This document shows positions 8,225 to 20,996 of a DNA stretch of 64,000 nucleotides, piece by piece. The translations under genes and the position numbers were made by a program. Within the stretch, counting starts at the first letter, position 1; each line of letters starts with the position of its first letter. The DNA lies in the IMG/VR virus record IMGVR_UViG_3300043410_001823, positions 1 to 64,000 of that record. One strand, written 5' to 3'. Below the pieces are notes generated by a model that worked only from the letters and a program-made list of their open reading frames with translations, was not told where the DNA came from and ran no database searches. This DNA is from a virus.

Positions 8225-8244
8225 AATGGCTTTTGCCATTTTTG
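8225..8244 (+). terminator. Short terminator between tRNA-Met and ahpC
   Basis: AATGGC (8225-8230), TTTT loop, GCCATT (8235-8240) and a T-rich tail. The 6-bp stem is modest, so partial read-through into ahpC is likely, since no separate strong promoter for ahpC is seen. Confidence 0.6.
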
Positions 8245-8264
8245 TATACAAACAAGGAGAAAAA

Positions 8265-8801
8265 ATGAAAACAGTAGGGGATAAATTAGGAAACTTTGCT
8301 GTCATGGGGGTAAAGCCTGGAGCTTTAACTTATGATGATAGCTCGTTTGAAACAATTACTCAAGATTCTTTTGCAGGTAAGTGGAAGATTATTGCATTCT
8401 ATCCAAAGGACTTTACTTTTGTATGTCCTACAGAGATTGTTGCGTATGACGCTCTTGTAAATGATTTTAATGATAGAGATGCAGTTCTTATGACAGGTTC
8501 TGTAGATAATGAATTTTGTAAGATTGCATGGCGTAATGCACACGAAGATCTAAAGAAAACAAATTCTTGGTCTTTTGCAGACACCGCTCATCAACTTGCA
8601 AATGAATTGGGTGTTCATCATCCATCTGGAGTTACATACAGAGCAACATTTATTATTGATCCAGAAAACGTAATTCAGCACGTTACTGTAAATAATCTAG
8701 ATGTCGGACGTAATGCAGATGAAGCACTTCGTATTCTTGATGCATTGCAGACTGGTGAGCTTTGTGCATGCAATCGTCCACTTGGTGGAGATACGCTGTA
8801 A
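8265..8801 (+). CDS. ahpC: Alkyl hydroperoxide reductase AhpC (2-Cys peroxiredoxin)
   Basis: A 178-residue peroxiredoxin that reduces H2O2 and organic peroxides in the cytoplasm. The peroxidatic Cys lies in DFTFVCPTEI (about residue 53). GELCACNRP near the C-terminus carries the resolving cysteines in the CxC arrangement seen in mycobacterial AhpC. GVTYRATFIIDP and VGRNADEALRILDALQ are typical core segments. The ATG at 8265 has a strong AAGGAG site. It is followed by a 65-residue protein and then AhpD, the reductant adaptor, so the phage carries the two-part actinobacterial system. Confidence 0.92.
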   Translation: MKTVGDKLGNFAVMGVKPGALTYDDSSFETITQDSFAGKWKIIAFYPKDFTFVCPTEIVAYDALVNDFNDRDAVLMTGSVDNEFCKIAWRNAHEDLKKTNSWSFADTAHQLANELGVHHPSGVTYRATFIIDPENVIQHVTVNNLDVGRNADEALRILDALQTGELCACNRPLGGDTL

Positions 8802-8998
8802 TGGCAACTGGTGAATGGATCGTTTTGAAGGGGGAGAATTCTCACAAGTGTTCTCTTCCAGATTTTGTAGAAAATAAACCATATAGCACTATGCTTCAAA
8901 AAAGACATGCTGGATCGGTATGGAAGTGTGAGTGTAATTTAATGTATGAGTGGTCAGGTAAAAAATGGAGGGATGTAGATTATGCAATGGGTAGATAG
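8801..8998 (+). CDS. Small Cys-containing protein between ahpC and ahpD
   Basis: 65 residues; the ATG shares one base with the ahpC stop (TAATG), so it is translationally coupled. The motif WKCECNLMYEW plus an earlier HKC gives three cysteines, possibly metal-binding or redox. Similar short W-x-C-x-C proteins occur in actinobacteriophages without known function. Its position inside an AhpC-AhpD pair suggests, but does not show, a redox role. Confidence 0.65.
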   Translation: MATGEWIVLKGENSHKCSLPDFVENKPYSTMLQKRHAGSVWKCECNLMYEWSGKKWRDVDYAMGR

Positions 8999-9494
8999 TT
9001 TAAAAGAATCACTACCAGAGTATGCAAAAGATATCAAGCTAAATCTTGATGCTGTAATTAATCGCAGCACTTTTGATCCAGATTACGCATCTGCGCTTGC
9101 ACTTGCAGCATCTATGCAAACAGGAAATGGAAAGCTTGTTGCTTTTATTGCAGCAGGAATTACAGATGAGGTTGAAAAGAATGCAGCAATGACTGCAGGA
9201 ACTTTGATGGCTCAAAATAATGTTTGGTATCCATACTTAGAAATGCTTGGAGATCCAAATGTTAGTGGCTTGCCAGCACAGTTACGAATGAATGCAATTG
9301 CTTCACACGGTGGAACAACAAAGGCTAAGTTTGAATCTTATGCTCTTATTGCTTCTATTATTGGTAAGTGTCATTTCTGTGTGACTGGTCATGCCGATAC
9401 CCTGCGTTCTGAGGGTTATACAGCCGAACAACTTAGAGATCTTGGACGCATTGCAGCAACTGTAAATGCTTTATCTAAGGTTTTATCCAATTAA
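8982..9494 (+). CDS. ahpD: Alkylhydroperoxidase AhpD
   Basis: A 170-residue all-helical protein matching mycobacterial AhpD: near the N-terminus LPEYAKDIKLNL, in the middle LRMNAIASHGG and the redox core GKCHFCVTGH (CxxC followed by the proton-relay His). AhpD shuttles electrons from dihydrolipoamide to AhpC and has weak peroxidase activity itself. It overlaps the preceding small gene by 17 bases. In Mycobacterium the two genes are also adjacent, which supports capture from an actinobacterial host. Confidence 0.9.
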   Translation: MQWVDSLKESLPEYAKDIKLNLDAVINRSTFDPDYASALALAASMQTGNGKLVAFIAAGITDEVEKNAAMTAGTLMAQNNVWYPYLEMLGDPNVSGLPAQLRMNAIASHGGTTKAKFESYALIASIIGKCHFCVTGHADTLRSEGYTAEQLRDLGRIAATVNALSKVLSN

Positions 9495-9530
9495 CAACCT
9501 ATCCTGGGTACGATATTAAACTACCCACTT

Positions 9531-9604
9531 GCCCCTATAGCTCAGCGGATAGAGCAGCAGGTTTCTACCCTGCGTTGTCGGAGGTTCGATTCCTTCTAGG
9601 GGCG
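9531..9604 (+). tRNA. tRNA-Arg(TCT)
   Basis: Acceptor GCCCCTA pairs with TAGGGGC, discriminator G. Anticodon stem GCAGG/CCTGC encloses TTTCTAC, anticodon TCT, reading AGA/AGG, which are favoured in an AT-rich genome. Confidence 0.9.
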
Positions 9605-9614
9605 CTTAACTTTC

Positions 9615-9623
9615 TGGTATAAT
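9615..9623 (+). promoter_or_regulatory. Extended -10 promoter (TGGTATAAT), leaderless
   Basis: TGG plus TATAAT at 9618-9623; six bases separate it from the ATG at 9630, so the transcript should start at the A of the start codon. No ribosome site is present. Confidence 0.75.
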
Positions 9624-9629
9624 CTTTAT

Positions 9630-10082
9630 ATGAGCGATTTAATTTCTACACTAAAGACACTGCTTGGTAGCACTGTCGCAATTAAATTTAAGGCACAAGG
9701 GTACCATTGGAATTGTGAAACAGATGATTTTCCACAATGGCATGATAAGTTTGGTGCAATTTATGAATCATTAGAAGACCCTATTGATGGGTTGGCAGAG
9801 TGGATCCGTATGCTTGGTGATTATGCTCCATTTAAGCTATCACGTTTTGCATCATTAAGTACAATTCCAGAAACAGAAATTTCATCTGATCCAGAGATGA
9901 TGGCTGCTGATCTATTAAAAGACCATATCGCTTCTGTAGAAGCTTTCAAAGCAGCATGTATTGCAGCTGGAGAAGCTGGAGAAAAAGGTTTAGAGAATTT
10001 CCTTGCAGATTGCATGACAACTCATCAAAAGTGGGCTTGGCAACTTCGTGCATCTACAACAGATATCGAATCTGGTGAATAA
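9630..10082 (+). CDS. dps: Dps-like ferritin
   Basis: A 150-residue four-helix protein. YHWN, then FPQWHDKFGAIYESLEDPIDGL and AEWIRMLGDYAP, form the Dps ferroxidase segment with conserved His, Asp and Glu residues at the subunit interface. Dps oxidises iron with H2O2, stores it and may coat DNA. It follows ahpC/ahpD and supports the peroxide-defence theme. The message appears leaderless. It could also be called a general DNA starvation/stationary-phase protein; DNA-binding tails are not evident. Confidence 0.85.
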   Translation: MSDLISTLKTLLGSTVAIKFKAQGYHWNCETDDFPQWHDKFGAIYESLEDPIDGLAEWIRMLGDYAPFKLSRFASLSTIPETEISSDPEMMAADLLKDHIASVEAFKAACIAAGEAGEKGLENFLADCMTTHQKWAWQLRASTTDIESGE

Positions 10083-10084
10083 TA

Positions 10085-10747
10085 TTATCTTTCATATTTT
10101 GAAGGTGTATTAAATTTATCTTTTAGCAATTTTGTGTAAACTACATCAAAAGTATTATCTTCTGTTGATATAAAATACTCAAATATTTTATCTTCAGGGG
10201 TATTTCTGTATACTTTGACATCTTGAATTTCTCTGCCACCAACATTAAAAATATTTCCATATAAAGACCTTGGGGCATATGATAAATCTACTATTTTTGC
10301 AAGCTTTTCTTTATTCATTTTAATAGGGGTATGAATGTCATAATTAAGTGGTTGGTTTATACCCATGGAAATAAGTGCTTTATTTGCCTGGGTCAATACA
10401 CGAAAATACTCTGTTGTACCATGCAAAGATCCATGTAATTCAGCTTTGTCAATTAATAAGCCATCATAGAGATATGGTATATCAGACATTTGTTCAAGAA
10501 TAAAAAAGTCATCATTCATTGCTATAAAATCAGACACTTCTGCTATATTACAAATTGCCTTATAACATTCTGTAATGTTTTTAAACTTGTTTCCAACATT
10601 TTCAACTGGAACAAAATTTCCAACATACCAGTCTGGTTTACCTCCTACGACCCAAATATTGGCATCTAAGACGTTATCAACTACCGATCTAATAGAATAC
10701 CTTAGCTCTTCGTTTTCACCATCACGATTTATATATATAAAATCCAC
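10085..10747 (-). CDS. Putative glycosyltransferase (Stealth-like)
   Basis: A 220-residue protein beginning DFIYINRDGENEELRYSIRS, followed by IWVVGGKP and a central FIAMNDDFFIL segment. This order resembles the core of Stealth-type sugar-phosphate transferases and related phage glycosyltransferases. The GTG start has no ribosome site, and a TGCTAAAAT -10 lies six bases upstream, so it is probably leaderless. It is divergent from the methyltransferase gene and belongs to the glycan cluster. The specific sugar cannot be assigned. Confidence 0.6.
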   Translation of the reverse strand: MDFIYINRDGENEELRYSIRSVVDNVLDANIWVVGGKPDWYVGNFVPVENVGNKFKNITECYKAICNIAEVSDFIAMNDDFFILEQMSDIPYLYDGLLIDKAELHGSLHGTTEYFRVLTQANKALISMGINQPLNYDIHTPIKMNKEKLAKIVDLSYAPRSLYGNIFNVGGREIQDVKVYRNTPEDKIFEYFISTEDNTFDVVYTKLLKDKFNTPSKYER

Positions 10748-10753
10748 ATAACT

Positions 10754-10762
10754 ATTTTAGCA
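10754..10762 (-). promoter_or_regulatory. Extended -10 promoter (TGCTAAAAT), leaderless GTG
   Basis: Read on the minus strand, TAAAAT (10759 down to 10754) lies six bases before the GTG whose first base is 10747. It is back to back with the plus-strand promoter at 10765. Confidence 0.6.
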
Positions 10763-10764
10763 GA

Positions 10765-10773
10765 TGGTATAAT
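10765..10773 (+). promoter_or_regulatory. Extended -10 promoter (TGGTATAAT)
   Basis: TATAAT at 10768-10773. The predicted transcript start (10780) is the A of a six-codon leader frame, not of the methyltransferase. Confidence 0.7.
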
Positions 10774-10779
10774 TATTGT

Positions 10780-10800
10780 ATGCTTGGGGGTATGAATTGA
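10780..10800 (+). CDS. Possible leader peptide MLGGMN
   Basis: A six-codon frame starts exactly at the predicted transcript start. Its TGA overlaps the likely TTG start of the methyltransferase, and its GGGGGT codons double as that gene's ribosome site. This layout suggests translational coupling. It may be fortuitous. Confidence 0.35.
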   Translation: MLGGMN

Positions 10801-11480
10801 GTCAAAGTTGGATTAATCCAGTTATAGAATACTATAAGATATTTTTTGGTGATAAAGCAGATATCATTATAGATGTTGGAACTAGAGATGGCGATGATGC
10901 TTTCCAAATCGCTACCGCTCTTGATTCCAAAGAAATTTATGCTATTGAGGCAAGACAAGAAGCAGCCCAAGAAGCAATGACTAAGTATCCTAGCTTTGAT
11001 GTATCTAACATTGCTATTTCTAATTTTTCTGGTGTAACAGATTTTTATTCAATTATCTCTGACGATAAAGACTACGCTGGATCGTCTTCGTTTTATAACA
11101 ATAAGTTTACAAGACAAGAATATCCTCACAAAATTATTCAGGTGAATACTGTTACAATGGATCAATTTATTGAAGGTAAGGGGCTAGAGGGAAGGTTTCT
11201 AGATGTTGTAAAAGTTGATATAGAGGGTTACACATGGGAACTTTTAGATGGTTTTACTAAACATATGAACAATGTTAAACTATTTCACCTAGAAACAGAA
11301 AAGGTATCGACCCACAGCAATCATCGAAATAGTGAAGAGATAAAAGATTTTATGTTTTCAAAAAACTTTATTCTTGCAGGCACACAGTATGAATGGGATA
11401 AAGAAATCGAAGATCAAGTTTGGATTAACAAGTATCTTATTAACAATGAAAGAGAAAGACAAAAATGGCTAATATCTTAA
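10797..11480 (+). CDS. FkbM-family SAM-dependent methyltransferase
   Basis: A 227-residue protein if the TTG at 10797 is used; it has a GGGGG site 6 bases upstream, and an in-frame TTG at 10776 is the alternative. IIDVGTRDGDDAF is the SAM-binding motif I, YAIEARQEA follows as motif II, and VKVDIEGYTWELLDGF is the FkbM signature. FkbM enzymes usually O-methylate sugars or polyketides. The end overlaps the glycosyltransferase downstream by 16 bases, so methylation of a glycan built by that enzyme is likely. Confidence 0.8.
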   Translation: MSQSWINPVIEYYKIFFGDKADIIIDVGTRDGDDAFQIATALDSKEIYAIEARQEAAQEAMTKYPSFDVSNIAISNFSGVTDFYSIISDDKDYAGSSSFYNNKFTRQEYPHKIIQVNTVTMDQFIEGKGLEGRFLDVVKVDIEGYTWELLDGFTKHMNNVKLFHLETEKVSTHSNHRNSEEIKDFMFSKNFILAGTQYEWDKEIEDQVWINKYLINNERERQKWLIS

Positions 11481-13384
11481 TAGTTAGTGCTAATCTTCGT
11501 GATTGGACAAAAGACAGCGGTGGCAAAGAAAGAACTGCGACTTTAGCAGAAGCGCTACCAGAGCATAAAATAACATTCCTATCATTCTCCTGGAGTGGTG
11601 AGGTGTTTGAAAAATATATTAGTAAAAACATTCATCAAATCCAACTGCCAACCCCTGCTACAGCCATAAGAAAATATAGAGAATTAATTAAAGATGTTGC
11701 AAAGGTTAACTACGATTTAGCATTTGAAATGTTAAAGGATGAACTTAACTTTTTTACGCAAAAAATTGTTGAATTATCTGAAAGCTCTGACCTAGTCATT
11801 GTAGATCATGCCTCAATCTCTCCGCTTGTTCCTAGACTTGATGTACCCATAGTATTTAACTCTCACAACTGTGAATTAACCATGGCAAAACAGCTATACC
11901 CAGAACAAAAAAGCTTAATTGGAATTGTTGAAAAAATTGAAAAAGAGATTATTGCAAAAAGCTCTGCAGTAACATATTGCTCAAAGCAAGATATTAAAGA
12001 AATTCAAGATACATATGGAAAGATAAACAAGTCAATTTATATTCCTAATGGAGCAATAAAGCAACCAGTAGTTGACTATAAGCTTAGAATGCAGTCAAAG
12101 AACATTATGTTTGTTGGTAGTGGGCATCCACCTAATGTTGCAGCAGCTAAGAAGATGATCCCATTGGCAAAACTAATGCCCGATTATAATTTTTTAATTG
12201 TTGGCAGCGCTGGTGTAAATCTATCTTTTGATTCATATCCAAAAAATGTTAAAATTTTGGGGCACGTAAATGATAAAGAGCTTGATAAATATTTTAAGAC
12301 ATCCTTAGCCTTTATTAATCCAATGGATGCTGGATCAGGTACGCACTTAAAGATGATGAAAGCTTTAAGTTATGGAATTCCAATTATTACTTCTAAGGTT
12401 GGGGCAAGAGGTTTTTCTAGTACAGAAATAGAAGAGTCAATGCTAATTGCAGAATCACTACAAGACATGCAAAAGGCAATCTTAAAATTATCTAATGAAA
12501 AAACTGTTGAACGCCTAGTGCAAGGATCTCAAGAGGTGTTTAAAGAGTATGACTGGGATACTATCAAACAGACATATTCGGAGTTTATCGATAGTATGTT
12601 GTCATCATCAAAAAAAGTAAAGAAAAAAAAGGATGCAGAAGATAAACCTAAACAAAAACAAAAGGTCTTAGTTTATTCTATCATCAGAAATAGAGAAGCG
12701 AATATGAAGAGGTTTTATGATCAACTAAAGAAATTGGTCATTGCCTCTCCAGAATACGAGTTCTATCTTTCTATTTATGAGAATGACTCAGTTGATCAAA
12801 CTAAACAAGAATTGTTTAGCAAGGATTGGTCATTTTTTAAGGGTGTATCTATCATATCTGAAAATATAGATACAGAATATTTTGAATCTGTTAAAGATGC
12901 TCAAAGAGTGGAAAACCTTGCTAAAGCTAGAAACCGTGCTATTGAAGCAGGTGGCTTTTTAGAAAACATGGATTATGTTCTTATGGTTGAGGGTGATGTA
13001 GTTTACTCTACTGACCATGCCCGTCAACTTTTAACCTTTAAAGATAAAGAGCCAGAATTCGATGTAGTATCTACAATTTCATTACGCAAAAATGGAAGGC
13101 ATTATGATTGGTGGGCTACAAGAACCTCTGCAGTTTATAACCCTAATAAGTCTGAGATTGAGCCAGACTACGAAACTAAGAAGTATGGCAAATATTACTC
13201 TACCTCCAATGGTCTTTGTTTATATAAGGCAAAAATGTTTAAAGATGGAGCAAGACATGGGTGGATCAATAAGGTCACTAAAGAGTTTGATTGTGAAATG
13301 GTAGTTGTTTGCCAAGAATTTCATAAGCTTGGCTATAATAACATTTATATTTTATACACTGCTGAAGCCCATCATATGGGGTAA
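11465..13384 (+). CDS. Two-domain glycosyltransferase (GT-B plus CAP59-like)
   Basis: A 639-residue fusion. Residues 1-380 form a GT-B, GT1/GT4-like enzyme: GGKERTATLAEALPEH at the N-terminus, FNSHNCELT, then the donor half with IMFVGSGHPPN and GSGTHLKMMKALSYGIPII. A Lys-rich linker (about 381-398) follows. Residues 400-639 resemble the cryptococcal CAP59 mannosyltransferase family: VYSIIRNREANMKRFYDQL, IYENDSVD, and MVEGDVVY as the metal-binding acidic motif. It could add two sugars in sequence to a host or virion glycan. Cytoplasmic; no signal or membrane segment. Confidence 0.8.
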   Translation: MANILIVSANLRDWTKDSGGKERTATLAEALPEHKITFLSFSWSGEVFEKYISKNIHQIQLPTPATAIRKYRELIKDVAKVNYDLAFEMLKDELNFFTQKIVELSESSDLVIVDHASISPLVPRLDVPIVFNSHNCELTMAKQLYPEQKSLIGIVEKIEKEIIAKSSAVTYCSKQDIKEIQDTYGKINKSIYIPNGAIKQPVVDYKLRMQSKNIMFVGSGHPPNVAAAKKMIPLAKLMPDYNFLIVGSAGVNLSFDSYPKNVKILGHVNDKELDKYFKTSLAFINPMDAGSGTHLKMMKALSYGIPIITSKVGARGFSSTEIEESMLIAESLQDMQKAILKLSNEKTVERLVQGSQEVFKEYDWDTIKQTYSEFIDSMLSSSKKVKKKKDAEDKPKQKQKVLVYSIIRNREANMKRFYDQLKKLVIASPEYEFYLSIYENDSVDQTKQELFSKDWSFFKGVSIISENIDTEYFESVKDAQRVENLAKARNRAIEAGGFLENMDYVLMVEGDVVYSTDHARQLLTFKDKEPEFDVVSTISLRKNGRHYDWWATRTSAVYNPNKSEIEPDYETKKYGKYYSTSNGLCLYKAKMFKDGARHGWINKVTKEFDCEMVVVCQEFHKLGYNNIYILYTAEAHHMG

Positions 13385-14390: not shown

Positions 14391-14678
14391 TTATTTTGCT
14401 ACCTTTAGCTGTGTTCTTTTTGGATTTGCTAACTCTATATTACCAGATACCTGCTTTGGTTGGCTATCTTCTTTTGACCATCGAATATACGATCTTACGT
14501 ATACTGCCATATAAGCTATAGAACCTAGATAAAATCCATATTGTTTTGTTTGTGTGGCATATATTAACCATAAACACTCATTTACAAATAAAATAATCCA
14601 ACCCCAGATTGTTTTACGTCCAATAAAAAATGTTCCAGTTATGCCAACTAAAGCAAGGATCCATGACCAATATTGCAT
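14391..14678 (-). CDS. Small multi-pass membrane protein (PnuC-like features)
   Basis: 95 residues with about three membrane helices in the first 65 (WSWILALVGITGTFFIG, WGWIILFVNECLWLIYA, YLGSIAYMAVYVRSYI), then a polar tail. Order and aromatic content recall a shortened PnuC-type nicotinamide riboside transporter or a holin; length argues against a complete transporter. The start overlaps the preceding stop (TAATG). Confidence 0.6.
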   Translation of the reverse strand: MQYWSWILALVGITGTFFIGRKTIWGWIILFVNECLWLIYATQTKQYGFYLGSIAYMAVYVRSYIRWSKEDSQPKQVSGNIELANPKRTQLKVAK

Positions 14679-14881
14679 TATCCTCTACCCCACTGAATTT
14701 TATCCCAAACACGTTCATGCCAGTAGTAAACACCAATCTTAACTATTGTTTCCCAAAATGCAATAAGTGTTGCTAATGATCCTTTACCAGTAACTACATA
14801 TACTACGGCAAAAGATGTTAGTGTGCCAAAAACACGATATGTCCATGCTTTTAAAAATGATCTTTGTTTTGTAACTTTCAT
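14678..14881 (-). CDS. DUF2061 membrane protein
   Basis: 67 residues starting at the ATG after GGGGG. It follows the DUF2061 pattern: SFLKAWTYRVFGT, then a membrane helix, and near the end KIGVYYWHERVWDKIQWG. The family consists of small two-helix membrane proteins of unknown function. A second copy lies at 20778-20996. A minus-strand TGATATACT promoter lies at 14901-14909. Confidence 0.8.
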   Translation of the reverse strand: MKVTKQRSFLKAWTYRVFGTLTSFAVVYVVTGKGSLATLIAFWETIVKIGVYYWHERVWDKIQWGRG

Positions 14882-14941: not shown

Positions 14942-15934
14942 ATGGAAAAGTTAAAAATAGAGTGGATGTTTGAGCGTGGACACGACTTGGACAACAATAT
15001 TGAATTATTGCATAAGCTAGATGACAATGGGTTTTATTGCATTTTAATTAGGACTATTTCTTTTTATCCCGATCCTTGGGGTGTTGCATATAAATACGCT
15101 TCAGTAACTAAAAATATTAAGTTTATGTTGGCCATTAATCCAGCACAGATGTCACCAACATATTGTGCCATGAAGATATCAACCTTTCAAAAAATTTTTG
15201 GAAATAGAATTCTTATTAATATTGTGTCTGGTGCCCATAAAGGTGAACTAGCTAGCTATGGAGATATTACACCTATTGAAAGTAGATATAAGCGATCAAA
15301 AGAATATGCGGAGATCATTAAACGCTTGGTCGTGTCTGGTCGCATTGAAAACTATAATGGTGAGTTCTATAAGCTTAGTGATGTAGATATAATGCCTGGA
15401 GAAGACTTTGAGATTGTTTTTGCTGGATCATCTGATGAAACTATTGAAAATGCAAATACCGCTGGGAATGCACATTATTATTCCATGGAAACCCTTGATC
15501 AATATATTAAAAATAGGCACAAGATATTGGTAGACTCTGCAATTAAGGCAACTATTATTGTAGAGCCTAATAGTAATCAAGCTTGGAAAGTAACAGAAGA
15601 CATATTAAGCAGCAGTTCTGACGAATTAGTTCAAAAATTAAAAGAAGAGTCTCTGCAGCATGAATCTCAAAATCAAAAACACCAACAGGCATTACACAAT
15701 TTTTCTAAAGATAATCTTGTCATTGAGCCAAATATTTGGTCTGGATTTGGATTAGTAAGGGCTGGAGGAATAACTGCAATGGTTGGAGATTATCAAGAGG
15801 TTGCTCATCTAATAAAAAAATTTCATAATGCTGGATTAAATAGGCTGTTGTTAGGCGGGACCCCTGAATTATATTATGTAGATAACTTTGTTAATGGAGT
15901 AATGCCAATATTAAAAGAAATGGATGTGATCTAA
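14942..15934 (+). CDS. Luciferase-like flavin monooxygenase (SsuD-like)
   Basis: A 330-residue TIM-barrel protein of the bacterial luciferase/LLM superfamily. The stretch AINPAQMSPTYCAMKISTFQ, followed by GNRILINIVSGAHKGELASYG and RYKRSKEYAEIIKRL, matches the alkanesulfonate monooxygenase (SsuD) pattern, and FEIVFAGSSDETIENA matches its later phosphate-binding loop. SsuD uses FMNH2 and O2 to release sulfite from alkanesulfonates. The ATG at 14942 is preferred for its AGGGGA site and promoter. Its stop overlaps the start of a sulfotransferase gene. Other LLM substrates are possible. Confidence 0.78.
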   Translation: MEKLKIEWMFERGHDLDNNIELLHKLDDNGFYCILIRTISFYPDPWGVAYKYASVTKNIKFMLAINPAQMSPTYCAMKISTFQKIFGNRILINIVSGAHKGELASYGDITPIESRYKRSKEYAEIIKRLVVSGRIENYNGEFYKLSDVDIMPGEDFEIVFAGSSDETIENANTAGNAHYYSMETLDQYIKNRHKILVDSAIKATIIVEPNSNQAWKVTEDILSSSSDELVQKLKEESLQHESQNQKHQQALHNFSKDNLVIEPNIWSGFGLVRAGGITAMVGDYQEVAHLIKKFHNAGLNRLLLGGTPELYYVDNFVNGVMPILKEMDVI

Positions 15935-16680
15935 TGCATAGATCTTTTTATCATTTACACATACCAAGGACTGGTGGTACACATTTTGAGTATAATATGT
16001 TTTCATCAATTAAGCCTATTTTAAATCAATACAACGTAAAAATGCAAAATCTTAATGAAGATGCTACTGCTCATTGGTGCTGGTTTACACCACTGATTAA
16101 CAGTGATACGTTTATGTATGCAGCATTTAGAGATCCAGTTTTACGCACAATAAGCCAATTTGCAAATCAAGCAAAACAAGCCATAAAATATTCGCCAACG
16201 CCGTATAAAATATCAGACATAAATAAAAAAAGTTTTCACAATTGGCTATATACAGATTTTAATAAATATAAAAATGTTCAGTCTAAATGTTTACTATATT
16301 ACAATCCAGACCATTCTTCATATCTATCTTCAACAGGGATAACTTGGAAGCAAGATGAGGTTCCTGAAAAATCACATTATATGTTTGATGATGTTTTTAT
16401 TAATCAAGAAATAAATAAAGATTTATTAATGTCTAATTTTAACAGAATCAATTTAAAAGTTAATACTGTTGATCTTTCAAATATCAGTAAGCAAAAAAAA
16501 ATATTAAAAAACATATTAAATGCATTTGAAATAAAAGAAAAAATAAATATATCTAATATCAAAAATGTAGACTATTCTACAGGAATGACACTAGATATAT
16601 TTAATAGCTTAACCTCAAAAGAAAAACAAAGCCTATACGAACATCAAGATTCAGATTCCGAGCTTTTCTTTTCTTTATAA
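15934..16680 (+). CDS. Sulfotransferase family protein
   Basis: A 248-residue protein. FYHLHIPRTGGTHFEYNMF near the N-terminus carries the 5'-phosphosulfate-binding loop (PRTGGT), and AAFRDPVLRTISQF at about residues 64-77 fits the 3'-phosphate-binding motif with its Arg and Ser. The family moves sulfate from PAPS to sugars, proteins or small molecules. It shares one base with the monooxygenase stop (TAATG), so translation is coupled. The region after residue 150 is divergent and very AT-rich. The acceptor is unknown; glycans are the best guess. Confidence 0.7.
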   Translation: MHRSFYHLHIPRTGGTHFEYNMFSSIKPILNQYNVKMQNLNEDATAHWCWFTPLINSDTFMYAAFRDPVLRTISQFANQAKQAIKYSPTPYKISDINKKSFHNWLYTDFNKYKNVQSKCLLYYNPDHSSYLSSTGITWKQDEVPEKSHYMFDDVFINQEINKDLLMSNFNRINLKVNTVDLSNISKQKKILKNILNAFEIKEKINISNIKNVDYSTGMTLDIFNSLTSKEKQSLYEHQDSDSELFFSL

Positions 16681-16731
16681 GGCATATAAAGTTTAGCCTC
16701 GTTATCAGCTATATTGTTGTTAGCAAAAATA

Positions 16732-17490
16732 TTAAATACCCAATTCACGACGTTTTTGAGTAGCACTAATAGCTTCAATTTCATCTCCTAACTTAACTTG
16801 TTCAATTTTATATCCAACATCACGACCATAAACAATATTAGTAATGTTAGGCATCTTAACTATCATTGCATTCTTCATGTGCTCATCTTGATCAATAAAT
16901 ACCTTTACCTGCTCAAATGTGAGTGGGTCTTTAGGGGATGTATTATACGTACTTCTGACCCCTAGCATTACCTGCTCTGTTCTATTTCCAGCTTCATCAT
17001 AAAGAGCATGGTGTCCAGCATGCCATGGCTGATATCGACCTAACATTAATGTAGTTGGTTCATACCAATCGTGCAAATTAAACCCTGCGATGATAGTTTT
17101 TGCCTTCTCATCTGGATTTAAAGTATGGCTATTAAATACCACATCTGCATTTTCTGGTTTCTCAAACATATCGTTTGTATCTTTAAATCTTCCAGATTCA
17201 ATTGTATCCATGAAAATCAACACGTCTGGTGTACCAAATGAATTACGTGTAACTTTAGTTGGACATACAAAATCTACTACCACATGGTGTCCTTGCTTAC
17301 CAATAAGTCTTGCTAGTTCACCAAGTCTACGAGCTTGCTCAATTCTACTTTCAATACTAAACCCTAAATCTGAATTAACGGTAGCACGAGTTTCATCTCC
17401 ATTAAGATGAATTGCATTAATTCTATCTGCTAATCTTTTTGCTAATGCGGTTTTACCAGATCCTGGCAAACCTATAATCTGAATAATCAT
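16732..17490 (-). CDS. APS kinase / nucleotidyltransferase fusion
   Basis: 252 residues in two parts. Residues 1-135 resemble adenylylsulfate kinase: Walker A GLPGSGKTAL, HLNGDETR, NSDLGFSIESRIEQARRLGE and a GHHVVVDFVCPT strand; this makes PAPS from APS and ATP. Residues 140-252 form a cytidylyltransferase-fold domain: GRYQPWHAGH holds the HxGH signature and ISATQKRREL the C-terminal ISxTxxR motif. It resembles NMNAT/NadR-type enzymes more than ATP sulfurylase. The stop of the methyltransferase upstream overlaps its ATG. PAPS could feed the sulfotransferase at 15934. Confidence 0.75.
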   Translation of the reverse strand: MIIQIIGLPGSGKTALAKRLADRINAIHLNGDETRATVNSDLGFSIESRIEQARRLGELARLIGKQGHHVVVDFVCPTKVTRNSFGTPDVLIFMDTIESGRFKDTNDMFEKPENADVVFNSHTLNPDEKAKTIIAGFNLHDWYEPTTLMLGRYQPWHAGHHALYDEAGNRTEQVMLGVRSTYNTSPKDPLTFEQVKVFIDQDEHMKNAMIVKMPNITNIVYGRDVGYKIEQVKLGDEIEAISATQKRRELGI

Positions 17491-18152
17491 TGTTGCTCCT
17501 TACCAAATTCATAAATATACACAAATCCTTCTGAAAATACTGAAGGTATCACAAATCTTTTTTCTACATCATACGCATCTACCATTATACAAGCCATATA
17601 ACTATTAGTTTTTTGTAACTTGGACCAATTTTTATCTAAAAATTTTTGAAACAAGTCAATAGAAAATGGTTGAAATAAACAATACATATTATCATTTTGA
17701 CTATAATCAAAATCAAATGCATCCATTTCTAAAACAGTAACAGGCTTGTCTATATTAATATTTGTTGTTACTAAATTTTGTTTGCAAATATCCGCATATA
17801 CCTTATCTGCCTCTATGCATATATATTCTGAATATGGAGCATTATTTAGTAAGGAATAAAGCATTGGCTTTCCCTTACCAGATCCAATATCAACAAAACG
17901 TAAATTTTTGTCTCGATGTTGTTCAAAAAATCTGTTAATAATGTCAATCCAGTGAAGTGGAATAGGCTGATAGCCTTCTGATCCAGGAACAACATCGGTG
18001 TTATCGTATGCTGAAGGTCTCATGATATCAGGTTCGCTATCCACTGGAACTATTGGACTAGCTGTATCAACATTATACTTTTTATCAAAGTTTTCAAAAT
18101 TTAAACAATCTGATCTATATACATGTTGAAGTTGTTCTTTTGAGTATTTCAT
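17487..18152 (-). CDS. SAM-dependent methyltransferase
   Basis: 221 residues from the ATG at 18152, which follows GGAGAC. LRFVDIGSGKGKPMLYSL is motif I of class I methyltransferases, and YICIEADKVYADI supplies the acidic residue after strand 2. The N-terminal 80 residues are family-specific. It lies between WhiB and the APS kinase fusion with overlapping ends on both sides, so it is part of that operon. The substrate is not evident. Confidence 0.75.
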   Translation of the reverse strand: MKYSKEQLQHVYRSDCLNFENFDKKYNVDTASPIVPVDSEPDIMRPSAYDNTDVVPGSEGYQPIPLHWIDIINRFFEQHRDKNLRFVDIGSGKGKPMLYSLLNNAPYSEYICIEADKVYADICKQNLVTTNINIDKPVTVLEMDAFDFDYSQNDNMYCLFQPFSIDLFQKFLDKNWSKLQKTNSYMACIMVDAYDVEKRFVIPSVFSEGFVYIYEFGKEQQ

Positions 18153-18436
18153 TTTGTCTCCATTGTTAATGCCTGCCAAGTGTTGGCCCACTCTTGCTTA
18201 GTCTTATGGCTAGTAAACTCTTTAGATATTTCGCCACCTTCTAAGTATATACCGCCCCAGATACCCCATTCCTTTGACGATACTCCCACAGCAAAACATT
18301 GCCTCATAACGGGGCAACCCTTGCATAAAGAATCAACCATTAGTCTAGATTGCATATCTTCTTCATACTTATCAAAGAAAATATTTGTATCTAACCCAAG
18401 ACAGTCTGCATTATCTTTCCACAGATGCTGTCTCAA
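18149..18436 (-). CDS. WhiB-family iron-sulfur transcription factor
   Basis: A 95-residue protein restricted in family terms to Actinobacteria and their phages. The four cluster-binding cysteines are in NADCLG, LCKGCPVMRQC (CxxC and CxxxxxC spacing), and the turn GIWGG follows. WhiB proteins bind a 4Fe-4S cluster and the sigma factor to alter transcription, often in response to NO or redox stress. The start is TTG at 18436 with an AGGGGA site. Phage copies are known to interfere with host WhiB regulation. Confidence 0.9.
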   Translation of the reverse strand: MRQHLWKDNADCLGLDTNIFFDKYEEDMQSRLMVDSLCKGCPVMRQCFAVGVSSKEWGIWGGIYLEGGEISKEFTSHKTKQEWANTWQALTMETK

Positions 18437-20592: not shown

Positions 20593-20778
20593 CTACTTTC
20601 TATTATCGGTTTTATAAAAACCAGGTCCATTAAAAACTACTCCGAAACTAGAGTATACCTGTTTTAAAGGTGCTTTGCAAGTTTCGCAGCAATACCCTGG
20701 ATCATCTTCTTTAATAGATCGTTGCTTTGGAATAATTCCTTCACAACCATTGGTGCAAGTATATTCATACAGAGGCAT
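20593..20778 (-). CDS. FmdB-family zinc ribbon protein
   Basis: 61 residues. It opens MPLYEYTCTNGCEG and continues GYCCETCKAPLKQVYS, the two zinc knuckles of FmdB-type putative regulatory proteins, then a VVFNGPGFYKTD tail that is very characteristic. The start overlaps the preceding stop (TGATG). Function poorly known. Confidence 0.85.
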   Translation of the reverse strand: MPLYEYTCTNGCEGIIPKQRSIKEDDPGYCCETCKAPLKQVYSSFGVVFNGPGFYKTDNRK

Positions 20779-20996
20779 CAGTTAATCTTGCTTCCAAACT
20801 TAGCCCATGCACGTTCGTGTAAGAAGAAGCCAAGCATCTCACATAGTGTATATATGATTGCAAATGTTCCAGCATATTCCCAGTGTGCTTCTCCAGTAAT
20901 AGCCTTTTCAAAAAAATAAACCAATGTTCCTACAAAGCTAATATGAATAACTGGCCATGTGATAGCTTTATAAAGACTTCTCTTTTTTGATTCCAT
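20778..20996 (-). CDS. DUF2061 membrane protein, second copy
   Basis: 72 residues: SLYKAITWPVIHISFVGTL, a second membrane helix and HERAWAKFGS near the C-terminus match DUF2061. It is divergent from the copy at 14678, so the two are not a recent duplication. It lies directly after the endolysin in the operon, which hints at a lysis-related membrane role. Confidence 0.75.
   Translation of the reverse strand: MESKKRSLYKAITWPVIHISFVGTLVYFFEKAITGEAHWEYAGTFAIIYTLCEMLGFFLHERAWAKFGSKIN

Follow-up and report, generated by a model that had tools for sequence, protein, structure and literature searches.

The closest described counterparts of the phage genes considered here are the synthetases of 3'-phosphoadenosine 5'-phosphosulfate (PAPS), such as human PAPSS1/2 and Aquifex SAT/APSK, which join a P-loop adenosine 5'-phosphosulfate (APS) kinase to an HxGH adenylyltransferase domain, and the rhizobial clusters that bring the sulfotransferase NodH together with DUF2061 and the sulfate-activation genes for CysD (NodP) and CysNC (NodQ). 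APS-kinase-type genes also occur in freshwater phages, with WhiB-carrying actinophages prominent among them; cysC and cysH have been reported there and are transcribed, and the COBRA study reads cysC as a gene of assimilatory sulfate reduction (PMC10914622). We analyzed a stretch of 64,000 nucleotides (the window), positions 1 to 64,000 of the 85.3-kb IMG/VR virus record IMGVR_UViG_3300043410_001823, which contains a tRNA gene cluster, tail genes, replication genes, and a WhiB-like gene. Three of its genes are the subject of this work: LLM, coding for a luciferase-like flavoprotein; ST, coding for a predicted sulfotransferase; and KIN, coding for a two-domain protein (Table 1). A sequence-only reading of the region had proposed that the phage may make PAPS and transfer sulfate. 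Our results are in line with that proposal, and we favor, with moderate confidence, a phage sulfation module in which KIN would act as a minimal bifunctional PAPS-forming protein that feeds phage sulfotransferases.

All three open reading frames (ORFs) are open, with 330 (LLM), 248 (ST), and 252 (KIN) amino acids, and their arrangement is the one first described, the LLM stop overlapping ST and the gene with the APS kinase core lying on the opposite strand. Divergence among relatives falls mostly in third codon positions, and dN/dS (nonsynonymous to synonymous divergence) is ~0.05 to 0.45, indicating purifying selection. As dN is far below dS, these are selected genes and no chance ORFs.

The kinase assignment of KIN stands on several lines of evidence. 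Residues 2 to 84 match APS_kinase (PF01583) above the cut-off (1.1e-15), the protein matches phrog_10255 (7e-66), and a scan gave at least 585 relatives, with 70 to 93% identity for the best 80. The predicted structure has a mean confidence (pLDDT) of 91, and every one of its 50 best-ranked Foldseek matches in the PDB is an APS kinase or an APS-kinase/PAPS-synthetase fusion (TMt of at most 0.78). In the CysC of Mycobacterium tuberculosis, the APS site involves D480, R483, F492, R497, and F576 (PMC4373884). Placing the KIN residues by alignment to Escherichia coli CysC and NodQ, and following their conservation over 45 phage KINs, we found the first four as D32, R35, F44, and R49, all invariant, and the fifth as F102, conserved in at least 90%. 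The N-terminal domain is thus well supported as an APS-kinase type by sequence and model, and is predicted to phosphorylate APS to PAPS. Partial KIN-like matches (model positions 84 to 220) were seen besides or instead of a full KIN in G066 and G067, the records of loci L329 and L330. An analogy with the kinase of the CDP-phosphoramidate pathway (Campylobacter capsule) was set aside, as the cytidylyltransferase of that pathway has a different fold.

Past the kinase, KIN carries the motifs GRYQPWHAGH, YGRDVGY, and ISATxxR. ATP sulfurylases are marked by the motifs QxRN, HxxH, GRD, and SGTxxR (PMC3779200), and the KIN domain has counterparts of the last three (HxGH, GRD, and ISATxxR). With the APS_kinase match and this C-terminal HxGH nucleotidyltransferase, KIN is a true two-domain fusion, and the most likely role of the second domain is to form APS by adenylating sulfate. 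KIN shares its domain order, with the kinase first, with the PAPS synthetases; it differs from them in size (252 versus ~620 amino acids), in the deletion of the kinase lid, and in an adenylyltransferase like nicotinamide mononucleotide adenylyltransferase (NMNAT) that has HxGH, GRD, and S-A-T-x-x-R and lacks QxRN.

The genomic surroundings of KIN and DUF2061, a family of small membrane proteins, point to sulfate activation. In 122 of 155 nonredundant phage loci, KIN has a DUF2061 gene on its own strand at a distance of no more than 300 bp, directly downstream in 103 of these. DUF2061 is present in 31/33 KIN phage records versus 1/16 WhiB records without KIN, a count that, like that of ST below, is influenced by record length, shared ancestry, and the way the ST profile was assembled. 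On bacterial plasmids (Mesorhizobium, Microvirga, Gemmatirosa), DUF2061 stands beside cysD/cysN/cysC in six of nine inspected loci, with the order sulfotransferase-DUF2061-cysD-cysN in Mesorhizobium. Loci with such clusters are L250 and L335 to L339, where a sulfotransferase sometimes adjoins. Our literature search found no paper centered on the DUF2061 family. Full-length KIN homologs occur on plasmids of nine haloarchaea and of Microvirga lotononidis. The haloarchaeal proteins retain both the lid and the LDGD motif and, in those read, intact nucleotidyltransferase motifs; in the four plasmids inspected, all four homologs adjoin a sulfotransferase and no cysD/cysN annotation lies within ~7 kb. 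The Microvirga homolog, lidless like the phage KIN, sits between a NodH-like sulfotransferase and cysD-cysN-DUF2061, and its nucleotidyltransferase motifs are broken (HESH, GLDLGY, SPTAVQ), as expected if the adjacent CysDN makes the domain dispensable. The phage locus resembles the rhizobial NodH clusters in keeping sulfotransferase, DUF2061, and sulfate-activation genes together, and the Microvirga cluster even holds a KIN homolog. The phage differs in having one small fused protein and no CysD/CysN, and its ST is of the PF03567 type whereas NodH is of the PF13469/PF00685 type.

Several features speak against KIN as a PAPS-forming protein and have to be set beside this evidence. In the kinase domain, where the APS-contacting residues are kept, all 45 phage members lack a 19-residue stretch and with it the lid that carries the catalytic Lys (K562) and the ATP-stacking Arg (R559); the first Asp of LDGD (Asp478) is Asn30 in the window KIN and in the consensus. 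Catalysis by KIN would have to proceed despite the missing lid. In the second domain, RxQP takes the place of QxRN, ATP sulfurylase (PF01747) appears only below threshold in some members (E values of 0.017 to 0.11, at most 15 bits against a cut-off of 24.3), and the profile is nearer to NMNAT structures (2qjt, 7e-10; 1f9a, 2e-9) than to ATP sulfurylase. The NMNAT likeness led us to consider that KIN serves NAD salvage, unrelated to sulfur, in the manner of NadR, which too joins a kinase (for nicotinamide riboside) to an NMN adenylyltransferase. NadM/NadR models score KIN far below their cut-offs, even though the closest structures of the C-terminal domain are NMNATs. The kinase domain of KIN matches APS kinases rather than NadR kinases in both sequence and fold. 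With its cellular homologs beside sulfotransferases and cysDN, and its coupling to DUF2061, we regard a NadR-like role as very improbable.

The same NMNAT-like profile could also mean that KIN is a true APS kinase whose C-terminal domain is regulatory or transfers another nucleotidyl group, the APS coming from the host or by import, as the CysDN of the Microvirga cluster might suggest. The 34 KIN phage records, including the window record, hold no ATP sulfurylase above the cut-off and no PAPS_reduct-family gene (PF01507), a model that would detect CysD as well as CysH. The nucleotidyltransferase motifs are invariant in the phages, kept in haloarchaea, and broken beside CysDN, although this decay is a single, suggestive case. 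WhiB is a usual actinophage marker (PMC10202952, PMC10914622), and copies of the WhiB-like gene of the window, ~59 to 78% identical to it, are found in 80 IMG/VR loci, so that the virus is predicted to infect freshwater actinobacteria. Strains of the acI actinobacteria have no pathway of assimilatory sulfate reduction (PMC5301498); if the host is acI, as it may be, a phage sulfotransferase would therefore need phage-made PAPS. On balance, an outside source of APS seems unlikely to us, and we retain a KIN that would form PAPS from sulfate.

As to what the PAPS would be used for, KIN could be read as a cysC auxiliary metabolic gene of assimilatory sulfate reduction, in keeping with the report of transcribed cysC and cysH in freshwater phages cited above; its 62 cysC genes may be of the KIN family, and the fusion and the links to DUF2061 and sulfotransferases are not described in the parts of that study considered here. 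ST relatives were found in 13/33 KIN records versus 0/16 WhiB records without KIN, a contrast that is confounded by record length and lineage and is weak after length scaling (Poisson P value of ~0.025); that ST is seen in only 13 of the 33 also counts against a general link. Related phages seem to swap sulfotransferase types, since L003 carries one of the PF17784 type (positions 10550 to 11131) near a KIN that shares 93% identity with that of the window. With no PF01507 gene in the KIN records, sulfotransferases in some of them, and no downstream pathway in acI-type hosts, sulfotransfer fits better than assimilation, a role for KIN that we disfavor as quite unlikely.

ST on its own is difficult to recognize. 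As a single sequence it has no Pfam match even at an E value of 10, and a scan of viral contigs with it returned nothing, so the profile check proposed earlier succeeded for LLM (Bac_luciferase, 3.4e-31) and KIN and not for ST itself; an intermediate-sequence route was needed for this reason. ST relatives from other phages exceed the PF03567 cut-off, and a profile of 32 sequences matches heparan sulfate 6-O-sulfotransferase 3 (5t03) over nearly its full length (7.9e-10). The AlphaFold2 (AF2) model (pLDDT of 89, pTM of 0.88) has the PAP-bound 5t03 as its best Foldseek match (probability of 0.94, TM of 0.50, E value of only 0.035), and nearly all high-ranked matches are sulfotransferases. The PRTGGT and FRDP-R-S motifs named at the outset are indeed present, at residues 9 to 16 and 65 to 74. 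HIPRTGGT fits the loop that binds 5'-phosphosulfate, and FRDP..R..S has its Arg and Ser eight residues apart, as in a 3'-phosphate site. Across the 32 relatives, G15, R66, and P68 proved invariant and S74 at least 90% conserved. His47, also invariant, is presumably the catalytic base, a role drawn from family knowledge. Fold, PAPS motifs, and full-length profile match thus liken ST to the heparan sulfate 6-O-sulfotransferases (PF03567), from which it differs in its low identity (~13%). With the Arg/Ser of the PAPS site kept, sequence and model support ST as a sulfotransferase, and PAPS-dependent transfer is predicted.

LLM and ST form one tight unit, never separated in the contigs found. The LLM stop and the ST start overlap by 1 nucleotide (TAATG at 15932 to 15936), and separate scans with LLM and ST alignments led to the same four IMG/VR contigs, each with the same overlap. 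LLM relatives are 58 to 72% identical in three lineages, and this conservation implies a function; no cellular relative turned up when genome contigs were scanned with LLM alignments. LLM had been read as an SsuD that frees sulfite, and the SsuD family is indeed its nearest characterized one: it matches TIGR03565 (4.1e-48), its closest structures are alkanesulfonate monooxygenases (PDB 7jv3, 1.8e-38), and it shares their TIM-barrel family. However, the TIGR03565 score is 164 bits where the cut-off is 518, and the phage protein is shorter and genetically tied to a sulfotransferase. We mapped onto it, via an alignment, seven residues that we take to belong to the SsuD active site. Six are replaced (C54 to Y/F, W196 to A/V/F, R226 to K, H228 to T, Y331 to T/S, and H333 to E) and R297 alone is kept, in the same way in all four members of the 330-amino-acid group. 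Sulfite, besides, is not a substrate in PAPS synthesis or sulfotransfer. We therefore reject the SsuD function; the chance that LLM is a working alkanesulfonate monooxygenase supplying sulfite or sulfur is close to nil, and its sequence, that of an LLM-family flavin-dependent enzyme, gives no support for a release of sulfite from sulfonates. Reduced LLM paralogs (234 to 304 amino acids) occur in ~200 freshwater phage contigs of IMG/VR, sometimes two per genome (L012, 5006 to 5770; L010, 5246 to 6037 and 7228 to 8004), and some of them escape recognition by Pfam.

The three genes had also been seen as one set. This view held for LLM and ST; KIN belongs to a separate and far more widespread operon with DUF2061, and in the window LLM-ST is inserted between KIN and its DUF2061 partner. 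A strict three-gene unit is rejected, as hundreds of contigs with KIN lack LLM-ST and LLM-ST occurs in other company. In contigs L001 and L002, which stop within ST, a DUF2061 gene on the minus strand adjoins LLM-ST on the plus strand, and this copy is 82% identical to that of the window and in the same position, upstream of LLM. In L166 and L167, a convergent methyltransferase comes next after LLM-ST, and then an Asp/Asn hydroxylase-like gene and another sulfotransferase (8998 to 9681 and 9009 to 9692, respectively). The methyltransferase, directly 3' of LLM-ST, is a homolog (33 to 36% identity) of the MT gene of the window, which thus unites both settings, the DUF2061 side and the methyltransferase side. 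Around LLM-ST in these two contigs, near structural genes, we also saw a DUF6065 gene and an array of related cluster 2 genes, 2OG-oxygenase-like by appearance; the surroundings are possibly a protein- or glycan-modifying island. LLM-ST and KIN could then be unrelated cargo that met by chance in a hypervariable region, since the region is a cargo hotspot and LLM-ST lies in L166 and L167 without KIN or DUF2061 on the contig, although these are short fragments; the lack of KIN there does count against a joint module. The DUF2061 gene adjoining LLM-ST in L001 and L002, the clustering of the KIN family with sulfotransferases in archaea and bacteria, and the enrichment of ST among KIN records make a chance meeting improbable in our view.

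In the sulfation module that we favor, the C-terminal HxGH domain of KIN would convert sulfate to APS, and its N-terminal kinase domain would convert APS to PAPS, with the DUF2061 membrane protein working alongside KIN, perhaps in sulfate entry. ST may use the PAPS made by KIN, and the acceptor to which it would move the sulfuryl group is probably a glycan or some other hydroxylated virion or host molecule. LLM is assigned to the same step because its linkage to ST is perfect, and as a flavin-dependent enzyme it probably oxidizes or hydroxylates the ST substrate. A putative glycan cluster at 10085 to 13384 is a possible source of the acceptor, with nothing specific tying it to ST. The cluster contains a weakly Stealth_CR2-like gene, an FkbM methyltransferase, and a 639-amino-acid protein in which a GT4-type domain is joined to a CAP59-like glycosyltransferase domain.

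Table 1. Coordinates of the sulfation-related and neighboring features in the window
Feature	Coordinates	Strand	Evidence
DUF2061 (PF09834) small membrane protein, divergent from LLM; ORF reaches 14929, likely ATG start at 14881	14678..14881	-	Pfam 4.4e-16
LLM, luciferase-like flavin-dependent oxidoreductase, SsuD-related, SsuD active site replaced	14942..15934	+	PF00296 3.4e-31
ST, predicted PAPS-dependent sulfotransferase (Sulfotransfer_2/HS 6-O-sulfotransferase-like)	15934..16680	+	Profile, fold, motifs
ST motif HIPRTGGT, putative 5'-phosphosulfate binding, residues 9-16	15958..15981	+	Sequence; G15 invariant, 32 relatives
ST His47, candidate catalytic base	16072..16074	+	Invariant in 32 relatives
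ST Arg66...Ser74, putative 3'-phosphate binding	16129..16155	+	R66, P68 invariant; S74 >=90% (32 relatives)
KIN, complete gene	16732..17490	-	
KIN C-terminal domain, residues 144-252, NMNAT-like HxGH nucleotidyltransferase, candidate APS-forming	16735..17061	-	Profiles, motifs
KIN N-terminal domain, residues 1-135, APS-kinase-like P-loop kinase, shortened lid	17086..17490	-	Pfam, profile, fold
MT, class I SAM (S-adenosylmethionine) methyltransferase (FDKKYNVDT type)	17487..18191	-	ATGA overlap with KIN start
WhiB-like gene, actinobacterial-host marker	18149..18436	-	Sequence motif
Second DUF2061 gene	20778..20996	-	Pfam 1.1e-8

Elsewhere in the window, an AhpC-type peroxiredoxin gene (8226 to 8801) and an AhpD-like (CMD) gene (8982 to 9494) have homologs in the KIN phages L077 (92% identical) and L049 (64 to 65%), unusually conserved for cargo. 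ARAGORN placed a tRNA-Thr(ggt) at 10592 to 10662 on the minus strand, within the same-strand ORF 10085 to 10747, so that probably only one of these calls is correct, unless gene and tRNA overlap.

Within the literature searched, the LLM-sulfotransferase pair is new, and so is the finding that abundant freshwater phages carry a compact fusion of the APS-kinase/NMNAT type, coupled to DUF2061 and to sulfotransferases. More tentatively, with a confidence that falls a little short of even, we suggest that KIN represents a new class of minimal PAPS synthetases (an APS kinase with an NMNAT-type sulfate adenylyltransferase, ~250 to 285 amino acids), shared by actinophages of freshwater, a small number of other phages, and plasmids of haloarchaea, which would enable sulfation in hosts without sulfate activation. 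On this reading, KIN would provide another route to PAPS, small and testable, that could be useful for the synthesis of sulfated products, and the uncharacterized DUF2061 family would thereby be linked to sulfate activation. If these proposals hold, part of the phage cysC genes would serve sulfation and not sulfate assimilation, which would change how they are read in studies of the sulfur cycle, and abundant freshwater viruses would make activated sulfate and modify glycans or other molecules with it.

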